Virus record (IMG/VR): IMGVR_UViG_3300009314_000913
Coordinates: 1 to 24,576 of that record
Source: a virus
Reading direction: 5' to 3' (one strand)
Length of the DNA: 24,576 nucleotides
Position 1 is the first letter of the stretch. Each line of letters begins with the position of its first letter. The notes beneath the pieces are model-generated. The model made no database searches and was not told the DNA's origin. It saw only the letters and a list, made by a program, of their open reading frames with translations. A program made the position numbers and the translations under genes. This document shows positions 4,181 through 12,262 of this stretch, one piece after another.

Positions 4181-4410
4181 CGCGCTCACGTGCGTACACA
4201 CGCGCGCTCGCGTGCGAGCGCATAACGCAATCCCGCAATCTTCACCGCAATCGCCAACAGCAAGATTGCGCATCAGAATTCACCGTATTACATGGCCTTA
4301 CAGCACACGGCGCAATCTCGCAATCTCTTCTACAGCTTCACACATACGCACGCGCATGCTCGCGCTCACGTGCGTACGTACACGCGTTCACGTGCGCGCG
4401 CGTGCACACG
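4181..4410. repeat. Two alternating purine-pyrimidine tracts sharing a 17-bp direct repeat
   Basis: The 17-mer CGCGCTCACGTGCGTAC occurs at 4181-4197 and again at 4361-4377, exactly 180 bases apart. Each copy lies in a tract of CG, CA, TG and TA steps with CACGTG palindromes. These tracts bracket the CGCAATC cluster. Alternating sequence of this kind can adopt Z-DNA under supercoiling; a function is not proven. Confidence 0.7.
4226..4325. repeat. CGCAATC iteron cluster (six copies)
   Basis: Exact CGCAATC copies lie at 4226-4232, 4234-4240, 4246-4252, 4311-4317 and 4319-4325, with one inverted copy, GATTGCG, at 4264-4270. Two pairs have the same 8-base period, giving the 15-mer CGCAATCNCGCAATC at 4226 and 4311. 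Six copies of a 7-mer in 100 bases is far above chance. They probably bind an initiator or regulator. Confidence 0.75.
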
Positions 4411-6022: not shown

Positions 6023-6285
6023 CCGCATCCGACAAGCCCAACTACGTGCTGCACTGCTTCCTCTGTGGTTGGCCGGAGGGCCAGCCCTGGCTAACGGTCA
6101 AGCAGGCAAGCGCGTCGCTCTCTATCCCGCGACGGAAGGTGCGCCAGATGATCCACATGGGCGCGTTCAACCAGGTCCTGAAAATCGACAACGAGTGGCG
6201 CATCCACCACGACGCGCTCGACGCCTACATCGCCGAGACCCAGGAGGTCGTCGGCGTCCCAAGAAAGAAATCTCAGGGGAAGTGA
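6019..6285 (+). CDS. Excisionase-like helix-turn-helix protein
   Basis: This encodes 88 residues from a GTG at 6019 that overlaps the preceding TGA. The body reads WLTVKQASASLSIPRRKVRQ followed by a short wing (VLKIDNEWRIHHDALDAYI), the pattern of the MerR-like HTH_17/excisionase DNA-binding family. An N-terminal CFLCGW pair of cysteines is an unusual addition and could be half of a metal site. By family it could direct excision with the integrase at 8778-9662, or act as a small regulator. The distance from the integrase leaves the partner unproven. Confidence 0.75.
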   Translation: MTASDKPNYVLHCFLCGWPEGQPWLTVKQASASLSIPRRKVRQMIHMGAFNQVLKIDNEWRIHHDALDAYIAETQEVVGVPRKKSQGK

Positions 6286-6405: not shown

Positions 6406-6792
6406 TCAGGATTGCGTGTGGCGGCGAAAGAACTCCGCGACGGTCGCTTTGTCCGCTTTGCCCTCGGCGACCTGCCTGACCAGTTTCTCGAACGCGGCCT
6501 CGCTGGCGGTGAGGTCCAGGCCATTCAGCGCCAGGAAGACGTCTGCCGCGACCGCGCCGGTGCGCTTGTTCCCGTCGATGAAGGCGTGATTCTGCACGAT
6601 GTGGAAGAGGTATGCGGCCGCCATCTCGCAGAGGTCGCCGTGCAGAAAGTCTCCGCCGAACGCCGCCTGGGGCATGGCCACCGCCGACTGCAGCAATCCA
6701 AGATCACGGATGCCCGGATCGCCCCCGTAGAGCTCGATCTGGTTCCGGTGGATTTCGACAATTTCACCGAGGCTGAGGAAGATCGGTTCCAT
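6406..6792 (-). CDS. doc: Doc-family (Fic fold) toxin, death-on-curing
   Basis: This 128-residue protein carries the Doc/Fic active-site motif HAFIDGNKRTG at 69-79, with catalytic H69, acidic D73 and the GNKR phosphate-binding loop. The N-terminal FLSLGEIVEIHRNQIELYGG and GIRDLGLLQSAVAMPQ are also typical of Doc. Doc enzymes block translation by phosphorylating elongation factor Tu; that activity is family knowledge. The toxin lies 3 bases downstream of its antitoxin gene on the - strand. All key residues are present, so it appears intact. Confidence 0.93.
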   Translation of the reverse strand: MEPIFLSLGEIVEIHRNQIELYGGDPGIRDLGLLQSAVAMPQAAFGGDFLHGDLCEMAAAYLFHIVQNHAFIDGNKRTGAVAADVFLALNGLDLTASEAAFEKLVRQVAEGKADKATVAEFFRRHTQS

Positions 6793-6795
6793 ACG

Positions 6796-7023
6796 TCAGT
6801 CCGCCAGCCGCTTGAGGGCGTGGCCGTAACGGCGGTTTGCGGCCTTGAGCGCGGTCTCGAACTTCTCCCGATGTTCAGCGTCTCGCACGGGCGAGATGAG
6901 CAGGATCTGCCCATCCGTGGTGATGTCGAGAGGGGTGTCGCCATCGATCTTCAGCAAATCCAGAACGCCCCGGTCGATCACGAGCGCCAGGCTGTTCCCG
7001 TGCCTCGTCAGCGTCTTGATCAT
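6796..7023 (-). CDS. AbrB/MazE-type antitoxin paired with Doc
   Basis: This 75-residue protein begins with a swapped-hairpin AbrB-like DNA-binding segment (LTRHGNSLALVIDRGVLDLL) and ends with a charged helical tail likely to bind and neutralise the toxin. It precedes the Doc gene in one transcript. The start at 7023 is supported by GGAGG at 7031-7035 with 7 bases of spacing. The classical Doc partner is Phd, so this is a Doc module with an AbrB-type antitoxin. An inverted repeat just upstream suggests autoregulation. Confidence 0.88.
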   Translation of the reverse strand: MIKTLTRHGNSLALVIDRGVLDLLKIDGDTPLDITTDGQILLISPVRDAEHREKFETALKAANRRYGHALKRLAD

Positions 7024-7145: not shown

Positions 7146-7709
7146 ATGAGCAAAATGAGCGACGACAAGCGCTGCACGGCAAAGAGCAAGCAGACCGGCG
7201 AACGCTGCAAGCGGCGCGTCACGCCGGGCTACCGCGTCTGCTACTACCACGGCGCGAATCCCAAGAACCACGGCGGTTGCCCACCTGAGAAGGCGAAGGG
7301 CAATCTCAATGCCCTGAAGCATGGCTTCTTCGCCAAGCGCATCCTGGACGAGGACGAGCAACGACTGTTCGACGACATCGTGGCGCAGCTTCATGTCGAC
7401 TTCGTGCTGAACGAATCGTCGGATCTGATCGCGGTCGAGGCCATGGGCCTGGCGCTCGTTCAGTATTCCCGCGCCATGGATGCCGGCAACGCCCAGGCGG
7501 CCGAGACCTTCGACCGCATCGTTCGCTGCCACCTCAAGGACCTCAAGGCCACGAAGATCGCGCGCGAGGGCGAGACCACCAGCAACCTGAATACATCCCC
7601 GGCGGAGTGGGCAACCGCTCTGCTGGAGAGCATCCGCAAGTCCGAGAAGCCGAAGGCTCGAGGAAAGAAGGCATCCCGTGGCAAAACGTCAAACAAACGT
7701 CAGATTTGA
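7146..7709 (+). CDS. Zinc-finger protein, possible small terminase subunit
   Basis: The 187-residue product from ATG 7146 begins with a compact C-x8-C-x10-C-x2-H zinc module (RCTAKSKQTGERC, then VCYYHG), followed by a GNLNALKHGFF segment common in phage proteins encoded beside terminases. The middle is helical and the tail is lysine-rich. The start is uncertain because no strong ribosome site is seen; ATG at 7155 or an upstream extension to 7074 are alternatives. The large terminase at 10189 has a very similar N-terminal zinc module, which supports a packaging role. DNA recognition for packaging is inferred; no classical small-terminase helix-turn-helix was recognised. Confidence 0.6.
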   Translation: MSKMSDDKRCTAKSKQTGERCKRRVTPGYRVCYYHGANPKNHGGCPPEKAKGNLNALKHGFFAKRILDEDEQRLFDDIVAQLHVDFVLNESSDLIAVEAMGLALVQYSRAMDAGNAQAAETFDRIVRCHLKDLKATKIAREGETTSNLNTSPAEWATALLESIRKSEKPKARGKKASRGKTSNKRQI

Positions 7710-7796
7710 TGAAAAGCGCGGAGTGGGCCTGTCCCCCAGGTCTTTGGCTTCTCGCGACTTACGGGCTGGCCGTTTCGGCGGGTCCGGCGAAAACGT

Positions 7797-7816
7797 CGCA
7801 TTTCATCACAAATGCG
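7797..7816. promoter_or_regulatory. Inverted repeat, possible operator
   Basis: CGCATTT (7797-7803) and AAATGCG (7810-7816) form a perfect 7-bp inverted repeat around CATCAC. It is short for a terminator and has no T-tract, so a protein-binding site is more likely. No partner protein can be named. Confidence 0.4.
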
Positions 7817-7962
7817 CGGTTCTCGTTGGCCTGGTTCTGGCGCTGACTGGCGCGCACGTTTGCGCCCTGAGTGCTTCGGCAGTCGGCCTCGACGCATGGG
7901 GCCAGGCCATCGCTCCAGGCGCGACGTGGGCCACGTGTGGCGGCCCGTGCGCGGCCCCGGAG

Positions 7963-8076
7963 ACTGCTTCGGAAGCAGTACCTGGTTTCGGGGGGCAAGC
8001 AGTCCCCAAAACGACGGTCAAGCAGTGTTTCGGCACATCCGCAAGCAGTCATCCGCACCATCTGCAGGACTGCTTG
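7963..8076. repeat. AAGCAGT array with about 23-bp spacing
   Basis: Direct AAGCAGT copies start at 7973, 7997, 8020 and 8043, spaced 24, 23 and 23 bases. Inverted ACTGCTT copies lie at 7963-7969 and 8069-8075, one at each end. The left pair forms a 17-base palindrome, ACTGCTTCGGAAGCAGT. Four of the six copies extend to CAAGCAGT. Such spacing, near two helical turns, is typical of cooperative protein binding. Confidence 0.75.
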
Positions 8077-8154
8077 GAATTGGCGTGCCAAACTGCGCGT
8101 GAAATCGAGGTTCACTCGGATTTCGCTCCGGCTGAAAGACGGGAGGTCGAGAAG

Positions 8155-8604
8155 GTGACTCGGGCCGAGGTGCTTCGCGAGGTGATCTGTGTGCATGGGC
8201 GCGAAGGCGCCGCCGCTCACCTGGCGCTCTTCGCCAATCGGCGCTGGCTTCCCGTCGAGACGGCCTACGCGCGGGAAGTCGCCGCCGAGCGTGACCGCGG
8301 CCTGCGTCTGGGCCAGGTCGGCATGCTCGACAGCAATGGGGCTAATCCCGCGCTGATTCTTCGGCTCTTCGTGAAGGCATGGCGGCGCTTCCAGGCGCTT
8401 GGCCTCGACGTCGTCTATGTGGCGGTGGCCCCTGATGACGTCTCCTTTTACCTGCGGATCCTCTTCGAGCTCGCCGGCTGGGGCCGGCGTCCCTGGGATT
8501 TCGCTGACTATGCTTCCGTCGAGGTGGTGCGGCTGGACGTCCGGAAGGCGTATCTCCGCGCGGGGGGAACACTTCGACGGCGGTTCATCGAGGAGGTGGT
8601 CTGA
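8155..8604 (+). CDS. Small acyltransferase-like protein (function uncertain)
   Basis: This encodes 149 residues from GTG 8155, chosen because GGGAGG at 8141-8146 sits 8 bases upstream and because the open frame before it looks non-coding. The sequence has LRLGQVGMLDSNGANPAL, a long helix, then VVYVAVAPDDVSFYLRILFE. This pattern recalls GNAT-fold N-acyl amino-acid synthase (FeeM-like) proteins, where a strand ending in a histidine- or aspartate-containing loop precedes the F/Y-Y..LF helix. The match is by eye and weak. The gene ends with a stop/start overlap onto an ATG at 8604 that now runs antisense to the integrase. Confidence 0.55.
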   Translation: MTRAEVLREVICVHGREGAAAHLALFANRRWLPVETAYAREVAAERDRGLRLGQVGMLDSNGANPALILRLFVKAWRRFQALGLDVVYVAVAPDDVSFYLRILFELAGWGRRPWDFADYASVEVVRLDVRKAYLRAGGTLRRRFIEEVV

Positions 8605-8725
8605 TGCTGACCATGAGTCTGGCAGCTTGCGACCCTCGTCCTGGGGCCGATATGTGTGCTTCTGCGTGCTGTAGGGTCGACTGTCTCTCACTGTCGCTTG
8701 GCTGTCTTCGCCAGGAAGGAGCGCC

Positions 8726-8749
8726 GCCCCAGGCCGTGAAGCCTGGGGC
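8726..8749 (-). terminator. Hairpin downstream of integrase
   Basis: GCCCCAGGC (8726-8734) and GCCTGGGGC (8741-8749) form a perfect 9-bp stem with a 6-base loop, about 30 bases past the integrase stop. There is no clear T-tract on either side, so it may be a weak, factor-assisted or bidirectional terminator between the two converging genes. Confidence 0.5.
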
Positions 8750-8777
8750 AGGCGCGGGATTCGGCGAGTTGGCGCGA

Positions 8778-9662
8778 TCACAGCGCCTCCAGCGCCTTGG
8801 TGAGCGCCTCGCTCGGCTGATGGGTGTAGCGCACGGTTGTCGAGATGTTCCGATGGCGCAGCGCCTCCTGGACGGTGCGCAGGTTGCCGGTCCGCTCCAG
8901 GAGATGCGTGGCGAATGTGTGGCGCAGGCCGTGGACGGTGACTTTCTTGGCGATGCCTGCGCGTTCGAGCCACTGCTCGACGACAACCTCGGCCTGGCGC
9001 ACGGAAAGCCGCTCGCGCCGGTTGCTGAGGAAGAGCGCCTGCGTCTCGGCCAGGACCTGCTTGCGTCGCTTGAGGAACGCGCCCAGCCGCCTTCGCGTCC
9101 GCGCGTTCAGGAAGACCTTGTGGGTCTCGCCGCCCTTGGCGGTGATGGTGACCTGCTTCTCGGCGACGTTCACGTCGGACAGGTCCACGCCGACCGCCTC
9201 GGAGACGCGCAGGCCGGTGTTCAGGATGAGGTCGATGAGGCCCGCGTCCCGGTGGGCCTTCGCGCCCTTGGTCCGGTCGATGAGCCTGAGCAGCCGCTTC
9301 TTCTCCTGGACCGTGAGCACGTCGGGCGCGGGTCGGCGGCGGTGCTTGAGCCGGATGGCCGCAGCCGCATTGGCGGGGACGATGCCCCCGTCGTGCGCCC
9401 AGCGGAAGAATGCCTTGACGCTGGTCTTCACCTTGTCCACCGAGCCGGGAGCTTTCGGCGTCCCGTCCGGGCGCTTGGCCACGGCGTCGCTCGTGAGAAA
9501 GGCCGCGAGGGCGTCGGGCGTGACGCCCTCGACGGCGGTTCCTCCGCCCATGTGATCGGCTAGCATCCCCAGATCGCGGAGGTAGCTTGAGATGGTGTGT
9601 GGTGAGTTGCCATTGGCTTCCAGGTGTGTGCGAAAGCGCTCAATCGCCGGTCTGAGCTGCAT
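8778..9662 (-). CDS. Tyrosine recombinase / phage integrase
   Basis: This is a complete 294-residue tyrosine recombinase of XerC/D-like size, expected to integrate or excise the element by strand exchange. The N-terminal SAM-like core-binding domain spans about 1-100. The catalytic residues are all visible: R152 in TGLRVSE, K176 in the beta-hairpin, H244 and R247 in VHGLRHTF, H270 in LRHRN and nucleophile Y279 in VRYTH. It overlaps the upstream gene for a stand-alone core-binding domain by 23 bases, so the two form one reverse-strand operon. It lies between the small- and large-terminase genes, an uncommon position for an integrase. Confidence 0.95.
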   Translation of the reverse strand: MQLRPAIERFRTHLEANGNSPHTISSYLRDLGMLADHMGGGTAVEGVTPDALAAFLTSDAVAKRPDGTPKAPGSVDKVKTSVKAFFRWAHDGGIVPANAAAAIRLKHRRRPAPDVLTVQEKKRLLRLIDRTKGAKAHRDAGLIDLILNTGLRVSEAVGVDLSDVNVAEKQVTITAKGGETHKVFLNARTRRRLGAFLKRRKQVLAETQALFLSNRRERLSVRQAEVVVEQWLERAGIAKKVTVHGLRHTFATHLLERTGNLRTVQEALRHRNISTTVRYTHQPSEALTKALEAL

Positions 9663-10026
9663 CGGGGTTATCCTCCTGTTGCTTGCGGCGGCGCTTGGGC
9701 ATGGCGTCCTTTGGGAAGGCGACCGTCTCGACCATCCCCTGGGCCTGCGCCCACTCCAGAAACATCCTGAGCACGCGCACGATCTGCTTCACGGTCGGCT
9801 CGGCGCGATCTTTGCCATTGGGCTTCTTCAGGAGCGCGTCGCTCTTGAGGAAGCGACCCACGTCGGCGGGTCGGATGGCGGTCAGCTTCTTGCCCTCGCC
9901 GAAGAAGCCTGTCACGACGTCGAACTGCCTCCGGTACGTGTCCACCGTGCGCTGGTTCTTCGCGGCGGCCTTGAGCGCCTCGAAGTACTTCGGCCCGGCG
10001 TCCTTGAGCGTGGTCTGGCTCGGCAT
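9640..10026 (-). CDS. Stand-alone integrase core-binding domain protein
   Basis: The 128-residue product contains only a SAM-like, core-binding domain of the tyrosine-recombinase type and has no catalytic R/H/R/Y domain. Its segment FLKSDALLKKPNGK...FLEWAQAQGMV parallels FLTSDAVAKRPDGT...FFRWAHDGGIV in the downstream integrase, so it probably arose by duplication of that domain. The tail is very basic (PKRRRKQQ). The start at 10026 was chosen over an upstream one because AAAGGAG precedes it. Overlap with the integrase suggests coupled synthesis. It might bind att sites as an accessory or regulatory subunit; this is inference. Confidence 0.75.
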   Translation of the reverse strand: MPSQTTLKDAGPKYFEALKAAAKNQRTVDTYRRQFDVVTGFFGEGKKLTAIRPADVGRFLKSDALLKKPNGKDRAEPTVKQIVRVLRMFLEWAQAQGMVETVAFPKDAMPKRRRKQQEDNPDAAQTGD

Positions 10027-10188
10027 CTCTTTCTCCTTTGCAGCCAGGTTCCTGGCGGCTCGGCGCGTCGTCTCGCTGACGGCTCCATCGCCTCTTCCGC
10101 CGGACACATACACGCTCTATTCGCAGCGGATAGCAAGGGGAAAAATGAGCGATTTCGGGCCTTTTCACGGGTCGCAGGAGGTGCGTGC

Positions 10189-11859
10189 ATGGCGCAATGC
10201 AAGGCGACGCGAAACGACGGCACGCCCTGCCGGGCGGCGGCCCTGACCAGCGGCGACTACTGCTTCGCCCACGATCCCAGCCGGCGGGCGAGCTTCCTGA
10301 ACGCGTCGCGCCGAGGCGGCAACACGCGGGCGCGACAGCTTTCCAAGCAGGACAAGCGCGCCATTGCCCGCCGCCTTGCCGACCCCGTGCTCTGGGGCGA
10401 GCACTACCTGCGCAACCAGGACGGGTCGGCCCGACACTACTGGCCCCATCAGGCCGAGGATCTGCGCTGCGAAGAGCGCAACGTCATCCACCTGGATGGC
10501 CGCGCGGTCGGCAAGACGGTCTGCCTGGCCACGGACCTGCTGCACTTCGCCTTCATCACGCGTGGCGGACACGGACTCGTGGCCGCGCCGCATCAGGGGC
10601 ATCTCGACACCATCATCGAGGAGGTGGAGTTTCAGCTTCAGGCCAACGAGGACCTTGAGAGCAGCATCGCAACCAACAGCCAGGGACGGCCCAAGATCGT
10701 GCGGAAGCCATACTTCCGGATCGAGTTCAAGAACGGCTCGGTCATCTACTTCCGCCCCGCCGGCGCGTATGGAGACGCCTTCCGGTCGCTCCACGTCGAG
10801 CGCGTGTGGGTGGACGAGGGCGCGTGGCTGTCCGAGCGGGCTTGGCGCGCTTTGCGGCAATGCCTCAAGGCCGGCGGTGTCCTGCGCATCTACTCGACGC
10901 CCAACGGCCTGCGCAAAACGACCTACTACCGCCTGACCCAGACGCCGACGTGGAAGGTGTTCCGCTGGCCGAGCTGGCTGAATCCTTCCTGGAACGCCGA
11001 GCGCAAGGCCGATCTGCTGGAGTTCTACGGCGGCAAGGACACGCCCGGCTGGCAGCACGAGGTCGCTGGCGAGCACGGGAAGCCCAGCTACGGCGCGTTC
11101 AACCTGGAGTACCTCAACCTCTGCCGTGTGGATATCGAGGAGTACCGGAAGATCGTCATCACCGGCGCGGAACTGTCGGGCTGCGACACCGAGGGAGAGG
11201 TGTTTGACCGGCTGGAGATGATGCTGAACCTTGCGCCCCAGGACGGAACCTTCTGGATCGGCGGCGACCTGGGCTACACCAACGACCCGACCGAGCTTGT
11301 GGTCTTCAGGGAGACGCGCGACGAAGACCGGACGCGCGCCAAGCTCGTGCTGCGCATCCACATGGAGCGCGTGGCCTATCCGCATATCTCCGTGGTCATC
11401 GCGCTACTGGATCGCTACTTCGCTCCCGCGGGCATCGGCGTGGACCGCGGCGGCAACGGCTTGGCCGTCGTGCAGGAGTTGACGACGCTGGACAAGTTCA
11501 AGGCGCAGGAACTGGACAAGCGGCTCCACGGATACGACTTCGGCGGCTCCGTCACCATCGCCCTCAAGGACGGCGAGCCGCTCAAGAAACGCGCGAAGGA
11601 GTATATGACCAGCCTCATCAACCGCGCGCTCCAGCGGCGCGAGTTGCTGCTTCCGGTGGATGACATCGAGATCGAGGACGAGTTCACGACGCAGACCTAC
11701 ACGCTGTCCAACGGCAACGTCGTTTATTCCAAGGGCAACGACCACGTCGTGGACGCCGTGCGTTGCGCCATGCTCGTGCGCGACCAGGAGCGGCTCGACC
11801 GGATCTCGGAGGTCGTGCCCTGCGTGATGCCCGTGATGACCGACCCCGTGTTCATATGA
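10189..11859 (+). CDS. Phage terminase large subunit with N-terminal zinc finger
   Basis: This 556-residue protein is the ATP-driven packaging motor and DNA-cutting nuclease. ATG 10189 follows AGGAGG and is preferred over the much longer open frame that runs antisense to the recombinases. A C4-C14-C25-H28 zinc module opens the protein. The ATPase has a variant Walker A, DGRAVGKT (103-110), and Walker B VWVDEG with D209 and E210. The RNase H-like nuclease shows D360 in GGDLGYTNDPT, D419 in GVDRGGNG, and D518/D522 in GNDHVVDA. Fusion of a zinc finger to the motor is unusual and is shared with the gene at 7146. It is followed within 30 bases by the convergent vapC gene. Confidence 0.9.
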   Translation: MAQCKATRNDGTPCRAAALTSGDYCFAHDPSRRASFLNASRRGGNTRARQLSKQDKRAIARRLADPVLWGEHYLRNQDGSARHYWPHQAEDLRCEERNVIHLDGRAVGKTVCLATDLLHFAFITRGGHGLVAAPHQGHLDTIIEEVEFQLQANEDLESSIATNSQGRPKIVRKPYFRIEFKNGSVIYFRPAGAYGDAFRSLHVERVWVDEGAWLSERAWRALRQCLKAGGVLRIYSTPNGLRKTTYYRLTQTPTWKVFRWPSWLNPSWNAERKADLLEFYGGKDTPGWQHEVAGEHGKPSYGAFNLEYLNLCRVDIEEYRKIVITGAELSGCDTEGEVFDRLEMMLNLAPQDGTFWIGGDLGYTNDPTELVVFRETRDEDRTRAKLVLRIHMERVAYPHISVVIALLDRYFAPAGIGVDRGGNGLAVVQELTTLDKFKAQELDKRLHGYDFGGSVTIALKDGEPLKKRAKEYMTSLINRALQRRELLLPVDDIEIEDEFTTQTYTLSNGNVVYSKGNDHVVDAVRCAMLVRDQERLDRISEVVPCVMPVMTDPVFI

Positions 11860-11887: not shown

Positions 11888-12262
11888 CTATTGCTTTGCC
11901 TTGTACTTCACGCCGGGGAGGCCATCGAAGTCGGCGTCCTGCGTCCAGACCACGGCGTCGTGAGCGCGAGCCGTGGCCAGAATGACGCTGTCGGCCATGG
12001 GCAGCTTCAGGTCGGCGCTGATCCGTGCGGCGGTAAGGGCCGTCGCCGTGTCCAGCGAAACGACCCGGCCTTCCTGCATGTTCGTGACGGCTTGCAGGGC
12101 GGCGGTCTCGCCACGCTGTTGAAAGACGCGCTTGAAGACCTCAAGGAGACAGATCGTCGGCACCAGCAACCGGTCTACATCCTCGATGGCCTTGCCGAAG
12201 AACTTCGCGTTCGGTCCGTCCGCGAAGTAGTCGAGCCAGCCGCAGGAGTCGACGAGATTCAT
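11888..12262 (-). CDS. vapC: PIN-domain toxin, VapC-like
   Basis: This 124-residue PIN-domain protein has the acidic residues expected of VapC ribonucleases: D5 in VDSCGW, E41 in CLLEV, D91 in MADSVILA, and D109 with D111 near TQDADF. VapC enzymes cut tRNA or rRNA to arrest growth; the target here cannot be predicted. It overlaps the AbrB-type antitoxin gene by ATGA and shares its promoter. It lies on the opposite strand to the phage structural genes, consistent with accessory cargo that helps maintain the prophage. Confidence 0.92.
   Translation of the reverse strand: MNLVDSCGWLDYFADGPNAKFFGKAIEDVDRLLVPTICLLEVFKRVFQQRGETAALQAVTNMQEGRVVSLDTATALTAARISADLKLPMADSVILATARAHDAVVWTQDADFDGLPGVKYKAKQ

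Follow-up and report, generated by a model that had tools for sequence, protein, structure and literature searches.

What reason would a phage have to retain a Xer-like recombination reaction, apparently separate from integration, beside its packaging genes? This question is raised by a locus in the window, that is, the whole stretch of DNA analysed here, a complete virus record of 24,576 bases, in which copies of the heptamer AAGCAGT are clustered between the genes terS and terL. Taken alone, the array is one more set of regularly spaced binding sites. More useful is its setting: in a large phage group, most of it uncultured, a dif-like site and a conserved pair of recombinases separate terS from terL. 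Our analysis indicates that the array is a real, lineage-specific element of the protein-binding type, situated inside a phage Xer-like recombination locus, and that some protein probably binds it. The features concerned are given in Table 1.

Table 1. Features of the terS-terL region (positions in the window).
Feature	Position	Strand	Remarks
terS, small-terminase-like	7146..7709	+	PHROG terminase small subunit 1e-5; NCBIfam TerS 3.5e-5, below cut-off
Box 1, core-like copy at terS stop	7695..7720		AAACGTCAGATTTGATGAAAAGCGCG
Middle box, between Box 1 and core	7737..7764		CAGGTC...GACTTACGG; kept in L069 and L145
Xer/dif-like core	7791..7822		AAACGTCGCATTT CATCAC AAATGCGCGGTTC; two 13-bp arms around a 6-bp spacer
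AAGCAGT array	7963..8075	both	six heptamers, order -,+,+,+,+,-
Array site 1, inverted	7963..7969	-
Array site 2	7973..7979	+
Array site 3	7997..8003	+
Array site 4	8020..8026	+
Array site 5	8043..8049	+
Array site 6, inverted	8069..8075	-
Cargo gene, weak FeeM-like acyltransferase match	8155..8604	+	GTG start; GGGAGG 8 bp upstream
int, XerC/XerD-like tyrosine recombinase	8778..9662	-	profile and structure matches
intN, core-binding (SAM-like) domain only, without catalytic domain	9640..10113	-
terL, large terminase	10195..11859	+

The six copies, four of them direct and one inverted at each end, are all present where the first-pass annotation of this DNA had placed them, and the spacing of the direct copies, given there as 23-24 bp, measured 24, 23 and 23 bp. 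The array had also been called symmetrical, which holds only loosely: an inverted copy does cap each end, but it is separated from the nearest direct copy by 3 bp on the left and by 19 bp on the right. Nor does the array lie directly downstream of terS, as had been proposed, since it begins 254 bp past the terS stop. The heptamer occurs 12 times in the window against 1.6 expected, a number reached in none of 100 shuffles, and the highest number of copies of one 7-mer per 115 bp was six in the window and three or four in 200 dinucleotide shuffles. The frame across the array shows a weak codon-position GC bias (0.68/0.57/0.65), compared with 0.77/0.46/0.78 for the gene that starts at 8155. Because there is little codon-position bias, and because the 24/23/23 spacing breaks frame, we read this stretch as non-coding, in agreement with the earlier description. 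An open frame that spans the array (7678-8604) was rejected as coding on the grounds of codon bias and its diverged length in relatives. The same array recurs on another contig from this virus (L072/L044), which is 99.8% identical over 8.2 kb and reaches about 12.8 kb further left (G004).

Scans for Int, TerS and TerL identified the gene order terS, gap, int, intN and terL, with int and intN facing the opposite way, in more than 50 viral contigs; in a few contigs bearing the module intN was not detectable. The module is also intact in four bacterial records (an Anaerolinea MAG, Desulfosarcina widdelii, Ectothiorhodospira shaposhnikovii and an uncultured Desulfobacterium), and no close named phage was found in the collection searched. 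Int matches the XerC and XerD profiles (TIGR02224/02225) and the XerD structure 1a0p (172 bits), and its Arg/His/Arg/His/Tyr residues are kept in 14 homologues. IntN aligns to the N-terminal domain of Int, and its model adopts the fold of tyrosine-recombinase core-binding domains, the best structural neighbours including 3lys, 2kob and lambda integrase (Foldseek E-values above 0.001, probability 0.99 to 1.0). In most relatives intN stands beside the full recombinase, between terS and terL.

Box 1, the middle box and the core occupy the first part of the terS-int gap and are kept across the phage group, and Box 1, some 96 bp upstream of the core, is a repeat of its left half. A core was found in 45 of the 57 distinct gaps, in the form of 30 distinct sequences, and close copies of the core of the window are found in L069 and L145. 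Among these 30 sequences, the complementarity between the arms exceeds the prediction for independent columns at several positions, and the first two pairs are always complementary. The core thus has the Xer/dif-type layout of two inverted arms around a 6-bp spacer, and a XerC/XerD-like recombinase with its catalytic residues is encoded next to it, an adjacency that suggests that the two belong together. Each of three module-bearing bacterial genomes contains the core once and unsplit; a reading of the core as attP was rejected, as no attL/attR split was found in the three bacterial genomes searched. Genes for a large serine integrase lie beside the D. widdelii prophage and on the longer contig of this virus, and therefore integration probably has its own enzyme. 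Multimer resolution is more likely than integration, given that a serine integrase is present and that no split core was observed. We infer that Int and IntN run a reaction other than integration, of which multimer resolution is the simplest. It may be added that the serine integrase gene of the longer contig is located at L450:17416-19008, together with a DUF2924 gene, and that the end of this contig encodes a second, unrelated small terminase (Terminase_2, L451:484-900).

The part of the gap that follows the core is variable, being about 100 bp in some relatives and more than 1 kb in others, and it contains cargo genes or other repeats. In the window this slot extends from 7823 to 8777 and holds the array and the FeeM-like cargo gene; in L074, L109, L152 and L137 the cargo is Fic/Doc-like, endonuclease-like and TPR-like, as judged from reading the sequences. 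The terS-int gaps of L151, L104 and L116 have repeats of the form CGCATAAGCCAAGCAG(A/T)TATTGGCATG, the first half of which resembles a recombinase half-site, and these repeats are possibly extra half-sites. Outside the gap, two toxin-antitoxin-like pairs were noticed in the window: one, near 6406-7023, consists of a Fic/Doc gene and an antidote-like gene (doc_partner, below cut-off), and the other, recognised from its sequence only, of a PIN-like gene preceded by an AbrB-like start, near 11888-12262.

When the array was sought in related phages, as the first-pass annotation had advised, a homologous array was found at the same place in L069, and most relatives had none. The L069 array (9600-9720) has the order -,+,+,+,- with steps of 24, 21 and 27 bp, and positions 8016-8092 of the window align to L069 with 70% identity (blastn, E 2e-6). 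Six sites with at most one mismatch lie within 135 bp in L069, a density matched in none of 1000 shuffles, and the variants include AAGCAAT, AAGCACT and GAGCAGT. Among the relatives compared, only the window and L069 have an AAGCAGT-type array in the gap; a scan with a relaxed array pattern found no further relative beyond the same virus, and no related DNA was found in named phages. Conservation of the array rests on one independent relative. From core to array the distance is about 140-150 bp in the window, against about 520 bp in L069. The gap of L071, searched in the same way, has no AAGCAGT-like site, whereas its core is nearly identical to that of the window and its Int is as close as that of L069. 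As L071 and most relatives do without the array, the recombinase does not need it. A search for a candidate binding protein common to the window and L069 only found none, and a xis-like gene that encodes an HTH_17 protein (6028-6282) was rejected as the array binder, having no match in L069. A family box, GAACAATGCCTGCGG, resembles one L069 site and is confined to a subclade.

We tentatively favour the explanation that the array is a lineage-specific protein-binding element and serves as an accessory or control part of the phage Xer-like recombination locus. One sequence-specific DNA-binding protein recognising about 7 bp would occupy the clustered heptamers, and the XerD-like Int, probably together with IntN, which lacks the catalytic domain, would act at the dif-like core. 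From the six sites, 140-285 bp away from the core, the bound protein could bend or pair the DNA or recruit a regulator, and the loaded array would limit recombination to the right configuration, as the accessory sequences of ColE1 cer do. The arrangement in the window is cer-like, with the array located 140 bp from the core and between the core and the recombinase gene. A more far-reaching version, which we hold to be distinctly speculative, is that Int and IntN form a two-protein phage Xer system, fixed in place between terS and terL, that resolves multimers or processes concatemers before packaging, and that the array is a lineage-specific switch or topological filter by which this step is coupled to the expression of the terminase or to the exchange of cargo within the gap.

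Other functions have to be weighed against an accessory role. It is unlikely, but worth considering, that the array is an operator or activator for the cargo gene (8155-8604), such that a regulator bound to the six sites controls its transcription. The array lies directly upstream of this gene, which starts 80 bp beyond the array end, is preceded by a good ribosome-binding site and shows codon bias, and the same segment serves as a cargo slot in L074, L109, L152 and L137. L069, however, has the homologous array followed by about 370 bp of non-coding DNA and no such gene, and a promoter scan, which covered the sigma-70 type only, found no promoter. The operator role named in the first-pass annotation is thus possible for the gene at 8155, but control of that gene is not the general role of the array, because L069 carries the array without it. 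As to the gene itself, its Pfam FeeM match (5.5e-5) is below the cut-off, its structure model is unreliable (pLDDT 38), and no relatives of it were found among viruses, the same virus excepted, or plasmids. The pac/cos site that had headlined the earlier annotation is a very improbable function. In that case TerS would bind the array, which does sit between terS and terL, and direct repeats occur in some phage pac regions, e.g. that of SPP1 (PMC4737164). In SPP1, however, the repeats occupy the 5' end of terS, and little preference for them was shown by the DNA-binding domain of SF6 TerS (PMC4737164). The array does not follow TerS similarity either: the TerS of L071 is closer to that of the window than the TerS of L069 (57% versus 48% identity), yet L071 lacks the array, as do nearly all relatives. 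Contig ends, a weak test, do not pile up at the array among the relatives listed. What is well supported of the original proposal is a protein-binding-type array between terS and terL that recurs in L069, and the case cautions against taking repeats near terS for pac sites. Least probable of all is a structured RNA, in which the inverted copies at the ends would pair into hairpins enclosing single-stranded AAGCAGU sites. Folding of the RNA is better than that of shuffled sequences (z -2.8), but such a fold is obtainable from inverted repeats alone; the first inverted pair of L069 is ATTGCTT/AAGCAAT, changed on both sides, but the loop of this pair differs (3 versus 16 nt), and Rfam gave no match.

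A replication origin of the iteron type, or else a site at which another phage's initiator is decoyed or hijacked, was likewise considered and seems quite doubtful. A three-copy AAGCAGT DNA pattern gave 67 viral matches, and arrays with a 21-25 bp spacing lie inside O-like initiator genes at 16 of these loci, against one for the control heptamer TGACGAA among the 120 listed of its at least 120 matches, although the O-like count is biased, as the O-like profile was built from AAGCAGT-bearing genes. Many of the 67 matches are coding repeats with a 24-nt or 12-nt period (e.g. L002 and L046) and were set aside as irrelevant. Some of the O-like arrays also carry inverted copies. In the O-like genes of L013, L030, L062, L055, L026, L009, L053, L060 and others the iteron reads GAAGCAGT(C/A)CC(A/G)AAAA, and the iterons are sometimes full dyads, AAGCRGTACC(N6)GGTAC-GCTT. 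Over the 7 bases that follow AAGCAGT, however, the pairwise identity of O-type iterons is 0.62-0.94 and that of the window copies 0.32, so that there is no conservation past the heptamer. No O-like gene is found around or beside the array, nor anywhere in the window or the 21-kb contig of the same virus, and the O-like phages in named collections use other heptamers. The likeness of the array to O-type iterons is one of layout. Moreover, the array is not the only cluster of its size in the window: six copies of CGCAATC/GATTGCG lie at 4226-4325, just after the primase gene and flanked by GCGCGTGCGC-type stretches, and a repeat array at this place is family-wide. The relatives have iteron-like arrays of other 8-mers there, in many cases split into two clusters some 200 bp from each other (CTTTCTAC in L096, CCACCGCA in L104/L151, CCTTCGCA in L149/L152, AGCCGGGA in L071 and GGGTAGAC in L069). 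The 4226-4325 cluster is likely a replication origin with fast-changing iteron words; it is a better origin candidate than the AAGCAGT array and weakens the origin function that had been suggested for the latter.

We return to the accessory role and to the systems that this locus resembles. Like ColE1 cer, it has a two-armed core of some 30 bp, interrupted by a short spacer, and accessory DNA on one side, which in cer amounts to about 180 bp beside the core and is bound by other proteins (PMC2409434). It differs from cer in that the recombinase is encoded by the phage and next to the site, and the array would be accessory by analogy. The Tyrovirus gp50 is also a XerC/XerD-like recombinase encoded in the late gene region, and its putative attP, which follows closely on the gp50 stop codon, is made up of a 6-bp spacer between two 11-bp inverted repeats (PMC9703825). 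However, gp50 lies between the neck and tape measure genes (PMC9703825) and Int between terS and terL, and the present locus also includes a second gene, intN, whose product is a partner reduced to one domain, as well as the array, the latter in this lineage. In lambda ori and the O-type iterons, as in the array, a short word recurs about every 20-24 bp in both orientations, and some O-like phages even have the same heptamer, but the array lies outside any initiator gene, no O-like gene was found, and conservation is limited to the heptamer. Finally, direct repeats adjoin the small terminase gene both here and in the SPP1/SF6 pac regions; those of SPP1 span the start of terS, whereas those of the window lie past its end and beyond the recombination core.
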